Below are positions 11,401 through 28,315 of a stretch of 64,000 nucleotides of DNA, in pieces. The stretch is from assembly GCF_001025215.1 (NCBI RefSeq), contig NZ_AP012330.1, forward strand, positions 1,302,001 to 1,366,000. Reading direction: 5' to 3'. Position numbers and translations under genes: made by a program. This DNA comes from Bifidobacterium pseudocatenulatum DSM 20438 = JCM 1200 = LMG 10505 (GTDB lineage: Bacteria; Actinomycetota; Actinomycetes; Actinomycetales; Bifidobacteriaceae). The stretch's first letter is position 1; each line of letters begins with the position of its first letter. The notes below the pieces were generated by a model. That model did no database searches, was not told where the DNA came from, and was given only the letters and a program-made list of their open reading frames with translations.

Positions 11401-11764
11401 CGGATTCGCCACCCTGCGAAGATTACGTGAGCAGCTGCAGCAACCCGGCAACCATCTTCGCCTGAAAATCAGTAGTGCATTGAGACGTCTCGCGAGGCGC
11501 TTGGCGCGTTCTTCGCTGTCGAAGAACTTCGGCACACGCTTCGCCACTTCCAACCGCTCGTTCCGGGGGCGACAGAGGTTTCCGGCAGCGTTTCCTTAAG
11601 AGCCACGGCATACGCAGTAGTCACCCATTCCCTCTTTCAGAGCTCATCGAAAATCAGTTCCTAAAAACTTTCAGATGTTGGGTGTTCCTCTGCAATAGCG
11701 TCATCAAAATTCGAATCGCCTCATGATCGCGTCACCAAGACCCGAATCGCGTCATAATCCCGTC

Positions 11765-12170
11765 ACAATCCCGTCGTCGAAAACTGTCTCTGAGCCATTA
11801 CGATAGATATTGATGCACAGATCCGTATCGCAGCCAAGGAATTTTGATTCCGGCAATCCGGCATCACATACCTTCTGCATCACACGCAGGATACTGCCCC
11901 CATGCTCGATATACCCATGTACTCAAAAGCAGAGGCCAAGGCATCGTTACGTATATTTCAAATAGCCCCGCTTCATGCGTTCAATGGTCTACCCATCGGC
12001 AAGCGCTCTGACAAGGTGATTTCAAGCCGATTGTCATAAATCTCAATCTGAATGCTCGAATAGTTGTAGCTGCAATGCACTTGCGTTGACAATCAGCTCG
12101 CAAATGGCATCCGACGGAATCTCATATATGTCCTGCCAGTGCACACCCTTGAGCCAGACACCCATATGAA
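11765..12170 (-). pseudogene. ATP-binding AlbA_2/HATPase_c_4-type regulator, C-terminal relic
   Basis: Pieces in different frames reconstruct the family's C-terminus in order: HWQDIYEIPSDAICELIVNA, then HCSYNYSSIQIEIYDNRLEI, LPMG, TIERMKRGYLK, RNDALASAFEYMG, YIEHGGSILRVMQKVCDAG and LPESKFLGCDTDLCINIYRN. At least four frame changes separate them, so the gene is dead. Such proteins with an N-terminal AlbA_2 (Schlafen) domain often sit beside BREX and other defence loci. The N-terminal part is missing; the sequence runs directly into the brxB-like piece. Confidence 0.7.
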
Positions 12171-19668: not shown

Positions 19669-19784
19669 TTCCCCCTATCCCACCTTAGGACAAACATGAG
19701 ATAAGCCTTTCGCATGTGAGTGGCGAATAGATTCAGCCGAGTCTGACTTGACCCCGGCTGAATCACATGTATGCGCCCGTCTGT

Positions 19785-19911
19785 TCAGGCAAGGGACTCG
19801 TACGCTTGCGCATCGACCGGTTCAAGCCATTCGTTGCTCATCGCGCCAGGGTCTCCTGCCGGAACCATGAACGCCAGGTGGGAGAAGGATTCGCCAGGAG
19901 CCGCACCACTG
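19785..19911 (-). pseudogene. Cupin-domain protein, C-terminal fragment
   Basis: Minus-strand frame ending at 19785 reads GAAPGESFSHLAFMVPAGDP and then SNEWLEPVDAQAYESLA. It resembles the last strands of small cupins found beside aldo-keto reductases and carboxymuconolactone decarboxylases, with S-H-L-A-F carrying a typical metal-ligand His. The upstream part is absent. Confidence 0.5.
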
Positions 19912-19919
19912 ACGGCACC

Positions 19920-20186
19920 ATGCGCAACAAGTATGATCAAGCGCAAGCCCAAGACATGCCCATCGTCGAACGTGTGCTTGAAGTAGCCGAACACCATGGA
20001 GTGCCCATGGCTCAGGTTGCGCTTGCATGGCACTGGGCCAAGGGCGTGACTGCACCTATCGTGGGCTGTTTGCAGCCAGAACGCGTGGATGATGCTATCG
20101 CCGCGCTAGGCGTGCAGCACCATGAGCTCTCGTCGACACGTAGTAAAACATATGCCAACATTGCAGGTCTCTTGCGCACAAACTAA
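19920..20186 (+). pseudogene. Aldo/keto reductase, C-terminal fragment
   Basis: Reads MRNKYDQAQAQDMPIVERVL, EVAEHHGVPMAQVALAWHWA and KGVTAPIVGCLQPERVDDAI, the NADPH-binding end of the aldo/keto reductase barrel. The catalytic Tyr/Lys/His half is missing. It overlaps head-on with the cupin fragment zone, again a rearrangement scar. From 20187 to 20393 no gene is seen. Confidence 0.7.
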
Positions 20187-20393
20187 ACCATGCAACCGGT
20201 TTGATTCCCTATTAGATAAGAACGCCTCACAACCGCAAGGTGTACTCAGCCACTACTACATCGCGGTATACATACAGCACCACTCATCAAAAAACGGAAG
20301 AGTCGCCAAAGTCATCTAAAGATGACTCCCTACGACAAATAATTACAAGGATATTCCACCTATGACAAACTGGCGCTGCGAAGAGGAGGAAAA

Positions 20394-20555
20394 ATGAAAC
20401 TAATCGCTATACTGTTGTCCATCATCATAATGGAAGCACCTAGCTCCATGACCAGCCCTGGTCCTTTTACATCAGCAAACGCTCTCAATACGTATTCCGC
20501 CAAGATATATCCCAAGTGCCCTCCAAGTCTACACTGGCTCTGCCGAGTCTTCTGA
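20394..20555 (+). CDS. Possible small hydrophobic peptide
   Basis: 53 codons beginning MKLIAILLSIIIMEAPSS, with a strong ribosome site GAGGAGGAAAA directly before the ATG. The N-terminus is a possible membrane helix. It overlaps the 3' end of the histidine kinase gene head-on. A peptide next to a lanthipeptide cluster could be an immunity peptide, but there is no family support, and codon use is not convincing. Confidence 0.3.
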   Translation: MKLIAILLSIIIMEAPSSMTSPGPFTSANALNTYSAKIYPKCPPSLHWLCRVF

Positions 20556-21714
20556 CATGATGACAGGAAAACGCGCATGAAACTGCCATGCTCCTTTTTC
20601 AGAAGATGTTTTAGCAAATCCTCCTATGGACTTAATCCATTTCATATGCAGCGACAAACCGCTTCCGGACACCGGCTTGTCAGGAAATAAGTTCTTTGAC
20701 GAAATATCATTCACCTGATCCACATGAATTAAATCATCGTCATCCCAAAAAACAATGAGACGGTATTCACCTCCTGGACTTCCATGCACAGCGATATTTG
20801 TATATAGCTCATGAATCAAAGAAAAAACCTCACGGGAAAAAGCATCATCAAGATTCTTCAAATCTTTTAGCGCAATTCTCGTCTTTCCATGAAATCCGAG
20901 TTCCTTCAGGAAGGAATCCCCTTGCTCACCTACAATTTGCAATCCAGAGAGACTCATATTGTCCGCTTGTACTGATTCCGTCTTTCCACCATTCATTAAA
21001 TCAACAACAGATCGCATCTCATCCAAAGTTTCTACGACGAGAGCCCTCACTTCTCTTATTTCTTTCTCGTCAAAGGTTTTGTTCTTCTCAGCATCCAAGA
21101 TTAGACCGTCCAGCAAAATTGCCATGTATGCCAAGTTACCAGCCACTGAATCATGAATTCGGCTGGCTACCACGCTCTCTTTTCGCAGGTATTCGACGTG
21201 CTGACTTAATTTTTCATACCTTAGTTTGTTTTGTTTGAGCTGGGCAGCAAGTTCTTTCCACGCAAACGTTTTTCCGACGAAGTATGCAAAGAACATGACA
21301 AGAATTAACATGAAATACTCATTGGCCGCCACACCATCAGCATTAAAGCGCCACATTCGAACCAATGCCACCGCGAACGGATACAGCATCCCCCACAACG
21401 ACTCAATTCGCAGCCCCGCATACCCCAGAGCCAACCAAGTTCCCCATAAAAAGCTTGGACCACCGTCATCTGGAATAAGACAGCAAATCACAAAAGTAAA
21501 AAAAAATGATATTGCAACATATAATCGGCCGCCGCGGCATCAGGACAACAGCTAATACATGCACGCATACGAGGAAAAATGTCATCACACCCGCAGAAGG
21601 GAAAAACAGTATTTCCGCAATAGTCATGATGACACAAACCGCTACAAGCAGATATTGGAGGTGAAATACGCACCATGAAATAAATGGATTTACTCTTTTA
21701 GTACTCACGTTCAT
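20529..21714 (-). pseudogene. Sensor histidine kinase of the lanthipeptide cluster, frame broken at an A9 tract
   Basis: NarL-partner-type sensor kinase. From ATG 21714 the first frame encodes membrane segments (CVFHLQYLLVAVCVIMTIAE; GVMTFFLVCVHVLAVVLM) and stops soon after a run of nine A (21498-21506; T9 on the coding strand). The other frame resumes within a few codons as FVICCLIPDDGGPSFLWG and carries the HisKA_3 phospho-acceptor (ASRIHDSVAGNLAYMAILLD) and an ATPase end (LIHELYTNIAVHG; GSGLSLHMKWI). One base more or less in the tract would give a single protein of about 394 residues. It overlaps the regulator gene by 17 nt. It may be phase-variable, a real mutation, or a sequencing artefact at the homopolymer. 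Confidence 0.8.
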
Positions 21715-22375
21715 TAATTTCCATCCATTGAATTACTGCTTGAGTCCTATTTTTAGCCCCTAATTTCTTCATGACCCTTCGAATATACGTTTTCACTGTA
21801 GGTTCCCCTATGCCAAGCTTGATGCCGATCTCCTTTGAGGTAAAACCCAGGGAACACAGCCCCATAACCTCTCGTTCCCTTTTCGCAAACGTTTCATAGT
21901 TGACATTTCCACTTTTGGCAGTCAATAATCTCTCATGCGACTCCTGCGCACTTTCGGAAGATGCATATTTAACATCCGCCCGCCGCCCATTCACTATTGC
22001 ACATAAGACATGGCAAAGACCTTTCACATTCGCCTTATCCACAAGACAGCTCGCTCCGTTTTCCAGAGCAGGCACACAGTAACGGTCCAGAGAAAAAGCA
22101 GTCATGCCCACTAAATCAACCTGAGCAGTCTCCTCACGAATGGTCCGGCACACATCGCAACCGCTCATTCCCTCTAGAGACATATCCACAAGCAATACAT
22201 CAGGACGCGTCCGCGAGTTAAGACTCTTACTCACCGCGGTCAGACCATCCGATACAGCCCAACACACGTTAGCCTGCGGAAGAATACGCTCAATCATCAT
22301 CTTCATAACGCCAAGCGTCAATCTGTCATTGTCCACGATAGCGATTCTTATTCGTTTTCCCAAATACATCGTCAC
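21698..22375 (-). CDS. LuxR/NarL-family response regulator
   Basis: 225 residues. The receiver domain has the acidic pocket IAIVDNDRLTL, the phospho-acceptor Asp in VLLVDMSLEGMSG, and a conserved Lys in CLVDKANVKG. The C-terminal LuxR-type helix-turn-helix reads FAKREREVMGLCSLGFTSKE and IGEPTVKTYIRRVMKKLGA. ATG codons at 22375 and 22369 are both possible starts. It pairs with the overlapping kinase and follows lanKC by about 80 nt, so it likely controls the lanthipeptide operon. The inverted repeat at 28035-28055 is a candidate binding site. Confidence 0.9.
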   Translation of the reverse strand: MTMYLGKRIRIAIVDNDRLTLGVMKMMIERILPQANVCWAVSDGLTAVSKSLNSRTRPDVLLVDMSLEGMSGCDVCRTIREETAQVDLVGMTAFSLDRYCVPALENGASCLVDKANVKGLCHVLCAIVNGRRADVKYASSESAQESHERLLTAKSGNVNYETFAKREREVMGLCSLGFTSKEIGIKLGIGEPTVKTYIRRVMKKLGAKNRTQAVIQWMEINEREY

Positions 22376-22458
22376 TCACCTTCACCCCTAAGCATACAAA
22401 TATAGCCACGCATTGCATCACGTACAGGCCATCACCCAGCCAGCAGCAATAGCTATTT

Positions 22459-25116
22459 TCAAACACGGAAAAGCGAAAAATCCTCATTTTCCAGAACCGG
22501 CATCCAAGATCCCCATTCCCCTGATCGCCCAGAATCACTTAACGCTAAAAGCACACCGGCCGATCCCGTCCCCAAATCCATGGAACACTTGTATCCATAA
22601 AGTCCCGGGAAAACAATGTTTCCATTGTTCTTCATCAGGTAAAGATTCAATCCATCAATAATCCGCTCCCACAGCTCATCATCAATACCTAAGTCGCGCA
22701 ACGCTATTGCAGCAGGCAACAGTCCCACATAACCCCCGAATAAGCCACCATTAAACGTGCAAACCATATCTGAACCTTGGGAAAGCCTTCTAAGAAACTC
22801 CTCATTAAGGAATTCCATTGACTCATTACCATCTTTATAGACTTCAATAAAAGCTAGGGCCACACCAGAAGTTCCACAATCCAGATAAGGCATTGTTCTG
22901 GGTTTATTCTTCAAATGATCCACGTAATACATCGGACGCTCCTTGTTATCCGCATTGGCAAGATGCGTTAGCGTAAGACGAAAAATGCTTTCCGCACGGG
23001 AGCGCAAAGCATCGTCTTTCCTGCAAAGAGAAGCCTTCCACAGGAACAGACCTGCACCCAACCAGCCCTTCATTAAGGTAAAGTCCGCTTTCGAACTCAG
23101 CATGTCTTGCGAAGTTAAACCACAATCGCATCTCTCATACACCTTGGAAAGAATATACGACAACATTTTTTCTTCATGCGAGTTCCTAGATGCTCCCAAT
23201 GACAGAAGAGCCATGCCAATGCCAGACAAACCAGAGTACAAGGAATAGTCGTCAATGCCTGCCAAATAATCAATGTGAGAGATTCCGATATAAGAAAGCA
23301 TTTTATGACATTCCTCGCGAGAAAACACCTCATATGCAGCCATGGCCACACCTACCGTACCGTTAAACAATCCCGCGCGGAACGACATACCGTCTTTCAA
23401 TTTACGTAATACCGATATATATTTCTCCCGCGCAATAGCATAAAACCATTCCGAGTTTTCCAAACATGAAGATTTCAGCAAAGCCAAGCTCACACCGGCA
23501 AAACCAGACCCAATGCTATATTTAGACATCTCATCGCCATACATTGAAATATCACCTTTGACAGGATATTCACCTCGCAAGTCAAGACCAGAGACAATCC
23601 CTTTATAAAGAAGTCTCATAAAGGTTTCAATATTCTCAGGATCTAAAAGCTTGTCACAAGCCTGTAACGCTTTGTCGATAAATGGTCCATGAGACAATAA
23701 CGGAGTCAAGCCAAGCATTCGCGATCTGACAGACCGAAGAAAAGAAACTGCCTCATTCCCAAAGTGCTTTTGCACCATATAATCCTGACAGAACAACAAC
23801 GAAGGAGCCAGATAATAAAGGGGACATATGGGAACAAAAAGGCGGTGCACTATAACCGCGAAGGCATACCAATCTTGTTGTTCATAGTTGCATACAGCAT
23901 CGTTGGTAAATCCTGGAGTAGCGATATCTACTTGAAAATCTTGGGAAAGTTTTTTCGCCGCCTCAAAATCAATCAGTTTAATTTCTAAAGAATCATTAAT
24001 CAGCACATTTGATAAGCTCAAATCTCCAACCGCAAATCCAATTCCATGCATTTTCGCAATTGCACTTTCCAATTTGGTTGCGATCTCTTTACACCCTCGC
24101 CAATAAGAATCAGAGCAATCCGTCCGAGCAGAGCATCCATCGAAAGGGAATTCCATTGCTATGTACTGCTGCAAATCTCGACCTTCAAAAAAATCCTCAA
24201 CTAAAAATGCATGATTCCAGACATCAAAACAATCGACAGCATTCACAACATCAGAGAGCGGACTCAAGGAACGAAGGATTTGATATTCATGCTTGATTCG
24301 ATGAAAAGCATCCAAACATGACCTATCACTGACCCCAACATTTTTTCGCCCTTCTTTAAGGATATATTTTTTGCCGTTTCGCGAAGCGAGATACACCCCA
24401 CCGTTATTACTAAAATGGACAGCGGAGTCTATTTGATAATCCGTTAATTTTCCATTTGAGTATTCAATAAAATAATTATTCTCTTTAACATATATAGGTT
24501 CATCAACGAAAGAAGGCAAGGAATACAGCGGTAATTCTTTATCCGGTATTAAATCACCCTGAGGAGTCACTATCACAGGTACATTCTTTTCGTTTGAAAA
24601 GCGCGGCTTCAGAGCACCATATCTGAAAAATACATTACTATTTTGCCATTGTTTATCAGTTAAGATATAAGGACCATCATCATATTTACAAACAATGGTT
24701 TTTAAATCTTTTAGTAGCTGAATAAAAATATGTTCAGAACTGGGGTAAATAGTTATGAATTTACCTGACTCAAGTCTATCCGCATATTTTCCATTCGCCT
24801 GAATGAAACAAGTTCTACTTGAAAGATATTTAAAAGAAATAGATTTAACGAAAAGATATTCAGCAACATCATAGAGAACATTCTGAGCATCATAAATTGT
24901 AGAAGTGATATGAATTTTCCAACCTTGAGGAGGAAAAGAGTACATCAGACAATTGACATAAGTCCAATGCCCATCAGACCTAACGCCCCATTGCTCTGAG
25001 TTGTCATTCGTCGGCAAAACATAAGCATCTTCACAAGCATAAACAGGTTCGCTATAGTATATGGTCTCCTTATCTGCCGAGAAACGGAGGTAATCATCCG
25101 CCGAGTAACCAACCAT
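22459..25116 (-). CDS. lanKC: Class III lanthipeptide synthetase LanKC (lyase-kinase-cyclase)
   Basis: Trifunctional enzyme of 885 residues that phosphorylates Ser/Thr in the precursor, eliminates phosphate, and cyclises with Cys to make lanthionine or labionin. Residues 1 to about 215 are the lyase-type N-domain. The kinase domain follows with the ATP-binding Lys in YILKEGRK (about 254), catalytic VGDLSLSNVLI (Asp about 365, Asn about 370) and metal-binding LIDFEAA. The C-terminal LanC-like cyclase has repeated G-x-x-G turns (GSGFAGVSLALL, GLSGIGMALL, CGTSGVALAF, LGTGSAGVLLAL). I do not see the zinc-ligand WCYG/CHG motifs, so class III rather than IV. The ATG at 25116 has AGAGGG upstream. 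Confidence 0.92.
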   Translation of the reverse strand: MVGYSADDYLRFSADKETIYYSEPVYACEDAYVLPTNDNSEQWGVRSDGHWTYVNCLMYSFPPQGWKIHITSTIYDAQNVLYDVAEYLFVKSISFKYLSSRTCFIQANGKYADRLESGKFITIYPSSEHIFIQLLKDLKTIVCKYDDGPYILTDKQWQNSNVFFRYGALKPRFSNEKNVPVIVTPQGDLIPDKELPLYSLPSFVDEPIYVKENNYFIEYSNGKLTDYQIDSAVHFSNNGGVYLASRNGKKYILKEGRKNVGVSDRSCLDAFHRIKHEYQILRSLSPLSDVVNAVDCFDVWNHAFLVEDFFEGRDLQQYIAMEFPFDGCSARTDCSDSYWRGCKEIATKLESAIAKMHGIGFAVGDLSLSNVLINDSLEIKLIDFEAAKKLSQDFQVDIATPGFTNDAVCNYEQQDWYAFAVIVHRLFVPICPLYYLAPSLLFCQDYMVQKHFGNEAVSFLRSVRSRMLGLTPLLSHGPFIDKALQACDKLLDPENIETFMRLLYKGIVSGLDLRGEYPVKGDISMYGDEMSKYSIGSGFAGVSLALLKSSCLENSEWFYAIAREKYISVLRKLKDGMSFRAGLFNGTVGVAMAAYEVFSREECHKMLSYIGISHIDYLAGIDDYSLYSGLSGIGMALLSLGASRNSHEEKMLSYILSKVYERCDCGLTSQDMLSSKADFTLMKGWLGAGLFLWKASLCRKDDALRSRAESIFRLTLTHLANADNKERPMYYVDHLKNKPRTMPYLDCGTSGVALAFIEVYKDGNESMEFLNEEFLRRLSQGSDMVCTFNGGLFGGYVGLLPAAIALRDLGIDDELWERIIDGLNLYLMKNNGNIVFPGLYGYKCSMDLGTGSAGVLLALSDSGRSGEWGSWMPVLENEDFSLFRV

Positions 25117-25138
25117 CACAATTCCCTCTTCCCCTATA

Positions 25139-25888
25139 TCAATCCTTCAAGAGTTGATTTTGAACAAAAAATCTATACGCTGGACATCTTTCAATGAGCT
25201 CTCGATGATCCCCCTGATCCAAAAGATAACCATCTTCAATAAAGAAAATAACGTCTGAGTCTATTATCGTAGACAAGCGATGTGAAATGACAATTGAAAT
25301 ATCATACTCATGCGATCTTAATAGGTTATCAAGCACACGTCTTTCTGTCTTCACATCAAGATTCGACGTTGCCTCATCCAAAATAAGTATCGGAGCTTTC
25401 CTTAAACAAGCTCTCGCAATCTGCAATCTCTGTCGCTGTCCACCAGACAAAGACATCCCCTGCTCACCAACACTCTTTTCCAAATCACCAACGGAAATAA
25501 TTTCATCTAAGCAAGCATTTTTCAAACATTTATTAATGTCTTTTTCTGATGGCACAAAATCAAGACCAAAAAATAAATTTTCTTTAATTGTTGTAGAGAA
25601 AAGGAGATTATCTTGAGAGACGACAGTAAACCACCTTCTCCACTCTTCTAGATGCTGCCCATCAAGCAAGCTCTCATTGATAGCAATGGCTCCAGAATTT
25701 GCACTATATAGACCTGTTATTGTATTAATAATAGTCGTTTTCCCGGATCCAGATGGTCCAATAATTGCATATCGACCACCCTTTTCCAACCTCATACTAA
25801 CATCATGAAGAACTTCATTATCATTGTAACCAAATGAAACGCTTTTCAGTTCCAAATAATCAACATTATTATACGCAAAGTTTTCCAT
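25139..25888 (-). CDS. ABC transporter ATPase of the lanthipeptide exporter
   Basis: 249-residue nucleotide-binding subunit: Walker A GPSGSGKTT, Q-loop VVSQDNLLF, signature LSGGQRQRLQIARA, Walker B ILILDEATSNLD, H-loop ISHRLSTI. The sequence resembles the C-terminal half of an MsbA-type exporter, but here it is its own gene: the ATG at 25888 follows the permease TAG by 2 nt, with an AAGAGAAG ribosome site inside the permease end. The frame extends further upstream only as a shadow of the permease gene. Probably exports the modified peptide. Confidence 0.9.
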   Translation of the reverse strand: MENFAYNNVDYLELKSVSFGYNDNEVLHDVSMRLEKGGRYAIIGPSGSGKTTIINTITGLYSANSGAIAINESLLDGQHLEEWRRWFTVVSQDNLLFSTTIKENLFFGLDFVPSEKDINKCLKNACLDEIISVGDLEKSVGEQGMSLSGGQRQRLQIARACLRKAPILILDEATSNLDVKTERRVLDNLLRSHEYDISIVISHRLSTIIDSDVIFFIEDGYLLDQGDHRELIERCPAYRFFVQNQLLKD

Positions 25889-25890
25889 AT

Positions 25891-26808
25891 CTACTTCTCT
25901 TGAGATCCGATGACACGGTTGATTCTTTTTAAGGAACCTTTGATTGTTTGACAACTCAAATAAAAGGTAAATAAACCACCTACTGGAGTAACCAGCTGAA
26001 AGAATAACATTACATATGCAACAAACGAACCGTATGTCAAGAGATGTACGTCCATCAGATGAACACCATAGCAAACAATGACCCCAGTACAAAAAATCGA
26101 AATCAGATTTTGAACGGGCGTAACAAAAGAATATACTTTGTCATTCAAGAGATTAACTTCTTTTATTTCATTTACTCGTTTCTTGAATTTTAGAAGCATA
26201 CATCTCTCTGCATTACATAACTTAACAGTGCGCATACTTCGCACTATTTCTGAAGTAAACGTATTTAATTTACCAATTCTCTCTTGCAGCATCATCGCAT
26301 TTCTGTTATTAAATATACCTAAGGGAACAGCCAGTATCATCACTGCAGGAAAGATAATTAGAACCAAAATAGATAGTCTGTAGTTAATTACAGTAAGAGC
26401 AACGACGGAAAACAGTATATTGATAACACTCGAAACAAACTGAGGAATACTAGCCGCCACAAAATTCCTGACCAGAGAGATATCATATACTATTCCACTG
26501 GCGATTTCACCGCTATTTTCATTGTCAAAAAAGAGCATATCTTTCTCAAAAATTATATCCATAGCCTGAATACGCAATTCCGCCACATGAAGATCGGCCT
26601 CAGTTGAAATTAGCAATCCACCAATTGCACACAATATGAATTGCGCCGCAAAAAGAAAAGGGAATACATACAGTAAACTAAGATCAAATTTTTTATTATC
26701 TATAAAATCTTTTATCAAAAGAGGAACAAAGAATGATAACGTCGATCCAGCGATACTGCAAACCACGCCAAGAATCATTCTCTTGCTAATTCGCATAAAT
26801 TTAAGCAT
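25891..26808 (-). CDS. ABC transporter permease of the lanthipeptide exporter
   Basis: 305 residues forming a six-helix ABC type-1 transmembrane domain (segments such as MILGVVCSIAGSTLSFFVPL, LSILVLIIFPAVMILAVPLG and LTYGSFVAYVMLFFQL). The coupling-helix area NTFTSEIVRSMRTVKLCNAE and the linker SLKRINRVIGS are as in MsbA-type half transporters. There is no N-terminal C39 peptidase domain, so leader removal must be done by another protease. It overlaps the oxidoreductase gene by 8 nt. Confidence 0.9.
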   Translation of the reverse strand: MLKFMRISKRMILGVVCSIAGSTLSFFVPLLIKDFIDNKKFDLSLLYVFPFLFAAQFILCAIGGLLISTEADLHVAELRIQAMDIIFEKDMLFFDNENSGEIASGIVYDISLVRNFVAASIPQFVSSVINILFSVVALTVINYRLSILVLIIFPAVMILAVPLGIFNNRNAMMLQERIGKLNTFTSEIVRSMRTVKLCNAERCMLLKFKKRVNEIKEVNLLNDKVYSFVTPVQNLISIFCTGVIVCYGVHLMDVHLLTYGSFVAYVMLFFQLVTPVGGLFTFYLSCQTIKGSLKRINRVIGSQEK

Positions 26809-27682
26809 CAGATTTTTCCGCCAAATATTTTGTATTAGTTTTAAGCAACTTTCCTTTACTGCCTATTCTAGGTTTAACATCCTCATCACCAACTTCTTCA
26901 GGTTTTAATCCTAAGCTTTCAACAAAAGCATCTGATAAGTCATCAAGCGCCATATCCTTCATTGACCAAATTCTCTTATTTACCCTAATCAATGGCGTCG
27001 CAAACCCCTCCCTCCCTGGAGCTATTAGGTCGCTTCGTAGTATTGTGTAATCATTACTTTTTTCAATCCATTCATCGTACTGTCCATTTAAACTTTCCTT
27101 TGCAATTTCTCTAGATATTCCCGCTTTAATCGCTTGTTCGATTATCTTTTCATCAGACATTTCTACATAATCTACTTCTGAAGGCTGGAACTTTTCATCA
27201 AATATTTCTGAAATGAATGCAACGACATGCTTTGGATCTTTTTCTGAAATGTAGGCTATGGATCCCGATACTCTGGCCGAATAATGGTCAGATGAACACT
27301 TGTCTAAAAAAATCACAGGATGAATTTCAAGCTTAATCTGACCACTCGTATACATTTTTCCTATATCATCATTTAATGTTCTATCAATTTGTGCACAAGC
27401 CGGACATAGGGGATCTAAATAAAATTCTACAGTCGGAATATCTTTTTTTGACCCAACTTGCACCAGTAGCCCGCCATCATTTGTTGCGTTTGTAGGTTTT
27501 CTTTTCACTTCTGATAATGACTCATACGCTTTTTTTATATCTTTAGCGTCACTTGCACTGTTTCTAGACATGAAAAGCCCAATAAATGCACTGGCGAGAA
27601 GTATAATAATTATAAATACAGTAAACAATCCGAGAATTGTTTGCTTTTCTCTTTCATTCAATCTTTTCATTACAGCATCCAT
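26801..27682 (-). CDS. Membrane-anchored DsbA-like thiol-disulfide oxidoreductase
   Basis: 293 residues: a short cytoplasmic start, one membrane helix (about 15-38, LGLFTVFIIIILLASAFIG), then an extracytoplasmic thioredoxin_4/DsbA fold with the active site C93-P-A-C96 (FYLDPLCPACAQID), a family-type Y-S-A-R helix, and a cis-Pro candidate in GFATPLIRVNKR. It would oxidise cysteine pairs outside the membrane. Its place right after the precursor gene suggests it forms the disulfide between the two central cysteines of the peptide, or protects thiols during export. The start is not firmly set: ATGs at 27682 and 27670 both lack a strong ribosome site. Confidence 0.85.
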   Translation of the reverse strand: MDAVMKRLNEREKQTILGLFTVFIIIILLASAFIGLFMSRNSASDAKDIKKAYESLSEVKRKPTNATNDGGLLVQVGSKKDIPTVEFYLDPLCPACAQIDRTLNDDIGKMYTSGQIKLEIHPVIFLDKCSSDHYSARVSGSIAYISEKDPKHVVAFISEIFDEKFQPSEVDYVEMSDEKIIEQAIKAGISREIAKESLNGQYDEWIEKSNDYTILRSDLIAPGREGFATPLIRVNKRIWSMKDMALDDLSDAFVESLGLKPEEVGDEDVKPRIGSKGKLLKTNTKYLAEKSDA

Positions 27683-27691
27683 CTATCAAAA

Positions 27692-27723
27692 TGGCTATCT
27701 GTTAACTTCAAAACAGATAGCCA
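27692..27723 (-). terminator. Attenuator hairpin between lanA and the export/modification genes
   Basis: Perfect 12-bp stem (27692-27703 / 27712-27723, AACAGATAGCCA on the 3' arm of the transcript) with an 8-nt loop, followed on the minus strand by TTTTGATAG. It would let most transcripts stop after the precursor gene while some read on into the modification genes, giving excess precursor. Confidence 0.75.
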
Positions 27724-27752
27724 CTGCAGTTTAAAACTGTTGCTCTTCTACT

Positions 27753-27911
27753 TCAGCAGAACCAACTCCACGAACTATGCCAATGATGCGTATTCGGATC
27801 ACAATTAGGATCCGTCGAACAATTTCCATGCGTGTCAACACATGGTGGCCTTTTAGAGGTCATACTTGCAGGTTGCGCAATCAAAGCCTGTAAACTGAGC
27901 AAATCCTTCAT
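27753..27911 (-). CDS. lanA: Class III lanthipeptide precursor LanA
   Basis: 52 residues; the ATG at 27911 has a near-perfect AAAGGAG site 5-6 nt upstream. The leader MKDLLSLQALIAQPA contains L-L-S-L-Q, a match to the class III I/L-L-x-L-Q recognition motif. The core is SMTSKRPPC, then VDTHGNCSTDPNC, then DPNTHHWHSSWSWFC. SMTSKRPPC fits Ser-x2-Ser-x4-Cys, and the last seven residues SSWSWFC fit Ser-x2-Ser-x2-Cys, both labionin patterns. Two further Cys lie in the middle. The four-Cys, Trp-rich core does not match any peptide I recall. It is the first gene of the minus-strand operon, upstream of the oxidoreductase, exporter and LanKC. Confidence 0.88.
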   Translation of the reverse strand: MKDLLSLQALIAQPASMTSKRPPCVDTHGNCSTDPNCDPNTHHWHSSWSWFC

Positions 27912-28034
27912 TTCCACTCCTTTGAACTTCCAGACTCTCATCACAGCGAAACAGATAGAAGTCCAGAAACATTTCTTCCACTGACGAAACCCAGTTTGAC
28001 ACTTTTCTCAATTTCGTGTCTTATTCACTCTCTT

Positions 28035-28055
28035 ATGTCATCCCTTAGATGACAT
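28035..28055. promoter_or_regulatory. Inverted repeat upstream of lanA, candidate regulator site
   Basis: ATGTCATC (28035-28042) and GATGACAT (28048-28055) form an 8-bp palindrome with a 5-nt spacer, about 125 nt upstream of the lanA start. Size and symmetry suit a dimeric LuxR-type regulator such as the one encoded in this cluster. The pairing is inference. Confidence 0.45.
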
Positions 28056-28107
28056 TTCAAGCCATATATGGATCTACCATTTTTGACATGTAACGGCTCG
28101 TTTTTCA

Positions 28108-28143
28108 TGATGGGTTACAGACATCATTGTCTGTAACCCATCA
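28108..28143. repeat. Perfect 16-bp inverted repeat between lanA and the acetyltransferase gene
   Basis: TGATGGGTTACAGACA (28108-28123) and its exact complement (28128-28143) flank a TCAT loop. No T-run follows on the minus strand; five T precede it on the plus strand. It may act as a terminator for the converging surroundings or mark the cluster boundary. From 28144 to 28315 no gene is seen. Confidence 0.6.
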
Positions 28144-28315
28144 CATTGCGAAACGGCCATCAGAACCTAGAAATCAGCCCTAGAAAGGACTGGGCATACT
28201 CTCTTCACTTGTTGCCGTCCAAAATTGCCGATAGATCGACAACCCAAATAAGTGAATGCTGTCCATATACTGACGCTTTTCCGAAAATATCACTTTCCAT
28301 ACAAGGCAGAAACGT

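Follow-up and report, generated by a model that had tools for sequence, protein, structure and literature searches.

A predicted class III lanthipeptide island of Bifidobacterium pseudocatenulatum and its candidate peptide pheromone

What does an 8.2-kb genomic island of Bifidobacterium pseudocatenulatum DSM 20438 produce, and what switches it on? The island (20119–28304) lies in a window of 64,000 nucleotides, bases 1302001–1366000 of the complete genome of 2,313,752 bases, and coordinates given without a contig name are positions in this window. From the letters of the window alone, seven minus-strand genes had originally been predicted to form a complete class III lanthipeptide cluster, namely those for the precursor LanA, a DsbA-like oxidoreductase (Dsb), a two-gene ABC exporter, the synthetase LanKC and a two-component system. 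All seven are found where this original prediction had placed them, and the family profiles agree with the assignments. Beyond it, we describe the edges of the island, a kinase gene lying in two frames and, new here, a plus-strand peptide gene (20394–20555) together with a palindrome that stands before both LanA and the peptide gene. A secreted peptide, a kinase with its regulator, and a shared palindrome before the peptide's own gene and a biosynthetic gene make up the layout of a peptide-pheromone circuit; because of this layout we consider it probable that the island is a class III lanthipeptide cluster and that a peptide pheromone of its own turns it on. We also give slightly better than even chances to a broader proposal, that bifidobacteria have their own quorum-sensing language of secreted Cys-looped nonapeptides of the form C-P-x-x-[LI]-x-W-x-C, each with a LuxR-type regulator and a kinase and, in many systems, a palindrome ahead of its own gene, which in several species would command a class III lanthipeptide, a lasso peptide or lactococcin 972 via one shared operator.

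The peptide gene, preceded by the Shine–Dalgarno sequence AGGAGG, encodes a 53-aa secreted-type peptide that ends in KCPPSLHWLCRVF and is the candidate pheromone; its secretion-type N-terminus was assigned by eye. It sits between one of the two palindromes and the end of the kinase gene, with which it is convergent. Strong matches to its profile (E < 1e-20) were found in 9/189 genomes of the bacterial family, where the gene is likewise convergent with the kinase, beside the closest relatives of the island kinase. These nine are what remains, once G051 and G054 are taken out, of the 11 genomes that, among the matches listed, have a kinase with an identity of 46% or more across no fewer than 310 of 320 residues. 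At E <= 0.05 the profile reaches 51 genomes, the nine strong ones and 42 weaker. From the latter we inspected the matches in G173, G018, G023, G014, G088, G082 and G143, dropping that in G143, a long frame without a kinase or regulator. After stepwise widening (profile A6), the family comprises at least 48 places in at least 41/189 genomes, and these figures, like the kinase counts, are lower bounds. An order-wide search of 396 genomes recovered the peptide in at least seven, all from the same genus.

Across a 19-row alignment of the peptides, Met1 and the C, P, W and C of the terminal motif are invariant. The motif C-P-x-x-[LI]-x-W-x-C is present at 15/15 places (L249–L263) and, in the form C-P-x-x-[LIM]-x-W-x-C, at 15/17 re-read places, the exceptions being G115 (L293), which departs from it, and G055 (L296), where it is read only in a different frame, beyond a stop. 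At 47/48 places (30/30, one by coordinates and 16/17) the peptide gene has a kinase and/or regulator gene no more than 1.5 kb away, with a kinase only at L249, L250, L290, L291 and L294 and a regulator only at L263 and L293; at G040:C36 (L289) the motif is present and both partners are absent from its 3.7-kb contig. Because G018, G088 and G173 were chosen partly for a nearby kinase, and part of the kinase queries came from these loci, a separate count excluded the 10 places in profile A5 together with five near-copies of them, and here a kinase and/or regulator is near 32 of the 33 peptide genes. As a control, such genes are near 2/30 Dsb-centred loci, both of them the Dsb-regulator-kinase trios of G051 and G054; among nine other control loci one had a kinase (L150), that of the S9 peptidase gene beside the host's second system. 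This second peptide-family gene of the host (G000:C1:53492-53647; L264, L274; 53.5 kb) ends in NCPTWLQWLCGKGK, has its own regulator and kinase, and has close homologs in G051, G032, G033 and G054. The S9 peptidase gene (G000:C1:50624-51259) adjoins the kinase of that system. At L227 (G173), a peptide gene stands beside a kinase and a regulator, with a divergent gene for a small exported protein that looks lactococcin 972-like by eye.

The operator-like palindrome AGTCATCTAAAGATGACT (20310–20327) ends 66 bp before the peptide gene, and the palindrome TGTCATCCCTTAGATGACA (28036–28054) stands before LanA. The latter is the sole match in the host genome of the 7+7 pattern TGTCATC-N4/5-GATGACA, and its inner part recurs before the peptide gene. 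The pattern occurs in 31/189 family genomes, as against 4/189 for a reversed control pattern. In three diverged versions the distance from the end of the palindrome to the peptide start is 66, 66 and 65 bp, and five further peptide systems have other palindromes ending 56–65 bp before the start. Within a band of 56–66 bp, which was picked after inspection of the data, 8/18 loci have a palindrome; 200 shuffles gave 0.5 on average and never more than 3. In other genomes, copies lie ~85–100 bp before LanKC (L132, L185), and further ones mark the start of a lasso precursor and the interval from it to the regulator (L132, L183, L185). L187 has a copy ~390 bp ahead of a lactococcin-972 gene, and in L183 a gene of this kind is ~2.8 kb beyond a copy. 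Another precedes the Dsb-regulator-kinase genes of G051 and G054. In three loci (L132, L133 and L185, from G064, G080 and G030) a class III LanKC gene, that of G080 being in two frames, lies beside a lasso cluster, several genes being preceded by the palindrome, and the oligopeptidase-like gene that follows LanKC there is a candidate leader peptidase.

The biosynthetic side of the island centers on LanKC (22459–25116, minus strand; 885 aa), which has lyase, kinase and cyclase parts (RamC_N, Pkinase and LANC_like in a family profile search), the last without the CHG zinc motif; a scan of all 885 residues found neither CHG nor WCxG. The predicted class is borne out by the NCBIfam class III model NF038151, which scores LanKC at 607.3 bits (cut-off 575), and class IV was rejected, the LanL model giving 258 bits (cut-off 650). 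The original prediction had set beforehand, as a possible refutation, a check for the loss of essential residues, and none was seen: K67, H69, K96 and K119 of the lyase part and K254, E277, D365, N370 and D383 of the kinase part are invariant in a 35-sequence alignment, positions that we take to be catalytic. The family profile also matches solved enzymes (best E 7e-219; LanKC-named chains from 4e-215), and together these comparisons support LanKC as a true class III synthetase. It is the only match in the host genome, and at E <= 1e-30 such genes are found in 7/189 family genomes, host included, with the next best 36% identical. In the protein collection the cluster identical to LanKC represents 1739 sequences and a second cluster, 84% identical, represents 71; beyond these, pieces of the same protein aside, identity falls to 39% in a B. 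subtile metagenome-assembled genome, 38–39% in Firmicutes and lower elsewhere. In the variants P0004, P0012, P0013, P0016 and P0047 differing joins occur at or near one spot (~residue 213, ENNYF), which is either a recombination hot spot or an assembly artefact.

The precursor LanA (27753–27911, minus strand; 52 aa, Shine–Dalgarno sequence AAAGGAG) starts with the leader MKDLLSLQ, followed by ALIAQP and then the core. Its leader has the L-x-L-Q type motif of class III precursors, and a comparable motif, LELQEL, is given in PMC10206099. The core reads S16-x2-S19-x4-C24, C31, C37, S46-x2-S49-x2-C52; that is, C31 and C37 remain outside two S-x2-S-x(2-5)-C motifs. Among shuffled cores, 0.7% contain two such motifs and 23% contain at least one. 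A late S-x2-S-x2-C recurs in related precursors as SSISIFC (L008), SNISVLC (L020) and SFGSFVC (L130), and the precursors at L008, L017, L020 and L130 have one Cys each. Labyrinthopeptins are class III peptides in which labionin and a disulfide are combined in a core of ~20 aa. The island shares with their clusters a LanKC without the zinc motif and a precursor with two S-x2-S-x(2-5)-C motifs and two further Cys; it differs in its longer core (~38 aa), in the placing of the spare Cys pair between the motifs, in having a Dsb gene, and in a LanKC nearest to Firmicutes enzymes. Thus, of the original label "labyrinthopeptin-like", the part concerning precursor layout is supported by the motifs and the spare Cys pair, and the part implying kinship gives way before the identities of the nearest synthetases. 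For the product we infer the ring pattern from these motifs; a combination of labionin with a disulfide has a precedent in paenithopeptin, in which the two coexist (PMC8960859). The in vitro product of that system had no disulfide, and its authors suppose that an oxidoreductase, encoded elsewhere in the producer, was lacking (PMC8960859). Five LanA variants of the protein collection (P0134–P0138) diverge from the core at differing points, which suggests either that the precursor has been lost repeatedly in nature or that there are sequencing errors.

Dsb (26801–27682, minus strand) is a membrane-anchored oxidoreductase of the DsbA/MdbA type with a CPAC motif and a hydrophobic N-terminal segment. 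It scores 24.6 bits against Thioredoxin_4 (PF13462; cut-off 23.2), its C-P-x-C and a later T-P are invariant in six aligned sequences, and its profile matches structure chains named disulfide oxidoreductase, MdbA and Disulfide bond protein A (E 2e-20 to 2e-6). With a family match in 185/189 genomes at E <= 1e-6, a second copy in the host at 35% identity, and its closest relatives in the 189-genome search at 51% (in G051 and G054), the island protein is, by these comparisons, a diverged member of a bifidobacterial oxidoreductase family. Its protein cluster numbers 1260 sequences.

The original prediction had held a dedicated thiol oxidoreductase to be unusual in a class III cluster, and within the loci searched this is upheld: tblastn with Dsb (E <= 1e-3) gave no match in any of the other 86 loci in L001–L087, some of which have short flanks, and a C-x-x-C screen within 7 kb in 80 loci returned 13 open reading frames, among which, by eye, four are thioredoxin-/TlpA-like (L009, L012, L045, L074) and none is DsbA-like. 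At the genome level, PF13462 was searched for 42/80 loci from 40 genomes, 21 of which have a match; because these matches cannot be tied to the LanKC contigs, they do not bear on the point. The notion that Dsb is a regular part of class III clusters was not borne out in the loci searched. At L045 (Brevibacillus porteri, 11484–11918) the gene immediately following that for a class III LanKC encodes a thioredoxin-like protein, and this may be an independent instance of linkage to a thiol enzyme.

The claim that the cluster is complete fares less well. The LuxR-type response regulator (21698–22375, minus strand; PF00072, PF00196) has an intact frame; the histidine kinase falls into a 3' part with the HisKA_3 domain (20529–21491, minus strand), 62–63% identical to the intact 397-aa kinases of G051 and G054, and a 5' part in another frame (21466–21714, minus strand). 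An intact relative used as a tblastn query matches both frames in turn, and a run of nine T (T9; 21498–21506, minus strand) lies at the break, which can be a sequencing error, a loss or a slippage switch at the T run. With its kinase frame broken, the switch in this sequence may be inactive or variable, or it may be misassembled. The exporter is divided into a membrane half (25891–26808, minus strand; PF00664) and an ATPase half (25139–25888, minus strand; PF00005), each matching its whole domain, with a stop and a frame change in the linker: the TAG of the former stands 2 nt before the new ATG of the latter. In all 11 relatives compared, the loci in which tblastn put both halves just before LanKC, the exporter is a single frame of 578–654 codons from stop to stop; the split can be a sequencing error or a loss. 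Taken together, the broken kinase frame and the split exporter make the completeness of the cluster doubtful. As had been predicted, no leader peptidase is encoded in the cluster or fused to the exporter; S9 peptidase matches occur at five places elsewhere in the host genome, and in related class III clusters of bifidobacteria LanKC is directly followed by an oligopeptidase-like gene.

Read as a pheromone-controlled lanthipeptide cluster, the island would be set in motion by low-level expression of the peptide gene and secretion of its product, whose C-terminal C-P-P-S-L-H-W-L-C, probably closed by a disulfide, would be sensed by the membrane kinase. The response regulator would then bind the palindrome before the peptide gene, giving positive feedback, and that before LanA, giving the output. 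LanKC would bind the MKDLLSLQ leader, phosphorylate and eliminate Ser16/19 and Ser46/49, and add Cys24 and Cys52 to form two labionin or lanthionine systems. A Cys31–Cys37 disulfide would be made by the membrane-anchored Dsb on or after export, and an unlinked protease would cut off the leader, perhaps after Pro14.

Several observations count against this reading. At 10/18 peptide genes there is no palindrome in the 56–66 bp band, and that of LanA is 124 bp away, not 66. Some matches to the pattern, e.g., in G028 and G034, look unrelated, and others occur in genomes such as G030 and G064, whose kinases resemble the island kinase weakly, so that the pairing of the palindrome with a cognate regulator is a presumed one. 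The kinase gene (20529–21714) is interrupted, its two frames meeting at T9; no immunity gene was recognised in the island; and the intact LanA core variants in the protein collection, being 98% alike, are too alike to probe the ring pattern. Finally, G051 and G054 carry the Dsb-regulator-kinase trio without lan genes and without a peptide gene there; therefore, the trio either predates the lan genes or can be separated from them, and Dsb may be part of a signalling module. The weakest points of the proposal are the broken kinase, the matching of regulator to palindrome, and the substrate of Dsb.

The last of these leads to the alternative that Dsb closes the ring of the pheromone and does not act on the lanthipeptide. 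The two invariant Cys of the peptide family fit such a role, as does the presence of the trio in G051 and G054 behind the same palindrome; however, the peptide gene is absent at that very spot, G017 and G086 have the peptide and no Dsb match beside the kinase in their annotated stretches, and LanA itself offers two Cys outside the labionin motifs, as opposed to the single Cys of the four related precursors. We take this alternative seriously while leaning toward the lanthipeptide as substrate. Slightly more doubtful is the view that this strain carries the island as a silent cluster in decay. The frame break at T9, the exporter split where 11/11 relatives have one frame, and the frameshifted LanA variants P0134–P0137 in the protein collection would all be accounted for by decay, but the frames of LanA, LanKC, Dsb and the regulator are intact, the LanKC and Dsb clusters run to 1739 and 1260 sequences, and each exporter half covers its whole domain, the second beginning with an ATG 2 nt past the stop.

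The 53-aa peptide could itself be something other than a signal, namely an immunity peptide or a small disulfide bacteriocin in its own right, co-regulated with the kinase. Its secreted appearance, its two Cys and the palindrome core that it has in common with LanA would fit, and no other candidate for immunity was seen, yet its family tracks kinase/regulator genes at 47/48 places and occurs in at least 41 genomes against seven of the 189 with LanKC (E <= 1e-30), which makes this explanation improbable. Still less credence is due to a metal-binding product with a histidine crosslink. The His-rich LanA core, in which H28, H42, H43 and H45 lie near T27 and T41, recalls noursin, a copper-binding peptide with labionin and a His-butyrine crosslink (PMC10206099); nevertheless, the noursin-type clusters described there come from Streptomyces and Saccharothrix, and their synthetases group separately, whereas the island LanKC is nearest to Firmicutes enzymes, and we regard such a product as very unlikely.

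With the pheromone-controlled lanthipeptide cluster still the preferred reading, we turn to how the island came to lie where it does. Of 15 genomes searched for an empty site, only the four with a whole right flank (G051, G033, G032 and G054) were examined, and nothing in the island matches the same site in them (blastn; L197–L200). The right flank resumes at 28305 in 4/4 of these relatives at 92–94% identity; the left flank, at 95–98% identity, ends at 20118 (G051), 20118 (G033), 19908 (G032) and 19227 (G054), and 67–623 bp lie between the flanks. In accord with the original description of the cluster as less GC-rich than the core, the GC content of the island is 0.406, compared with 0.518 for the rest of the window on the left and 0.576 on the right. 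Either this genome gained the lan cluster or the relatives lost it; because of the low GC content and the foreign LanKC, we favour gain, as judged from composition and gene kinship. Terminal repeats were searched for at the island edges, and none was convincing. A plasmid origin was rejected, as 72,556 plasmid records contain no near-identical DNA; LanKC relatives are found on plasmids in 81 records, every one below 60% identity. A fragment of an aldo/keto reductase gene (19767–20186; PF00248, end part of the profile) lies at the left edge.

Among known systems, the paenithopeptin and bacinapeptin clusters of Firmicutes resemble the island in being class III, in joining labionin with a disulfide (paenithopeptin), and in that the leader protease lies outside some clusters; they differ in that the disulfide enzyme is supposed to lie outside the cluster and the proteases are of the M16B type (PMC8960859). 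The class III cluster of Terribacillus halophilus (L008) has the same LanA-exporter-LanKC order, a LanKC 38% identical and an S-x2-S-x2-C near the precursor end, but its exporter is in one frame and it has no match to Dsb, regulator or kinase (tblastn, E <= 1e-3). Agr-type and class II bacteriocin pheromone circuits likewise have a secreted peptide, a kinase and a regulator that targets its own and bacteriocin promoters. By comparison, the island peptide ends in C-P-x-x-[LI]-x-W-x-C with two Cys and is paired with a LuxR-type regulator and a HisKA_3 kinase; no double-glycine leader was seen in it, and AgrB was not searched for.

Within the genus, the B. longum DJO10A lantibiotic and pseudocin 196 are also lanthipeptides, and the pseudocin 196 cluster too has lower GC and is thought to be acquired (PMC11305057), but both are class II with other genes (PMC4289311, PMC11305057). 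The original prediction knew of no described bifidobacterial class III cluster. This holds insofar as we found no characterised bifidobacterial class III lanthipeptide in the open-access literature, covered mostly by titles and abstract openings. It does not extend to mere signatures, since genome mining has reported NAI-112-like calls in B. bifidum (PMC8535415) and in bifidobacteria (PMC11305057), as well as class IV signatures in B. longum infantis (PMC4289311) and B. pseudocatenulatum LH-CAM-02 (PMC11840169), the last of which is possibly this locus. No account of the peptide family or of such a bifidobacterial pheromone was found in the same literature, at the same depth. Predicted bacteriocin clusters are reported for 64/501 bifidobacterial genomes and antimicrobial activity for one strain (PMC11305057), indicating that such clusters can be silent in culture. 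If the proposal is right, the window presents a quorum-sensing circuit coupled to a lanthipeptide that has a disulfide enzyme of its own. Knowledge of the inducer peptide and the operator would then allow attempts to switch on silent clusters with a synthetic nonapeptide and would provide a peptide-signal system for a dominant infant-gut genus, and the lanthipeptide would be a candidate labionin-plus-disulfide peptide with its own oxidoreductase.

Some further features were noted. Scans of the sequence gave 23 sigma-70-type promoters, compared with 19.6 in shuffles, and 11 terminator-like sites, compared with 6.0; neither was used as evidence. A perfect 16-bp inverted repeat with a 4-nt loop and no T run (28108–28143) lies between an acetyltransferase gene and LanA. 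G051 has a separate class III cluster (L131) with a LanKC ~28% identical, an exporter, a regulator and a kinase; its three candidate precursors each have two Ser-rich Cys motifs, in a design close to labyrinthopeptin.

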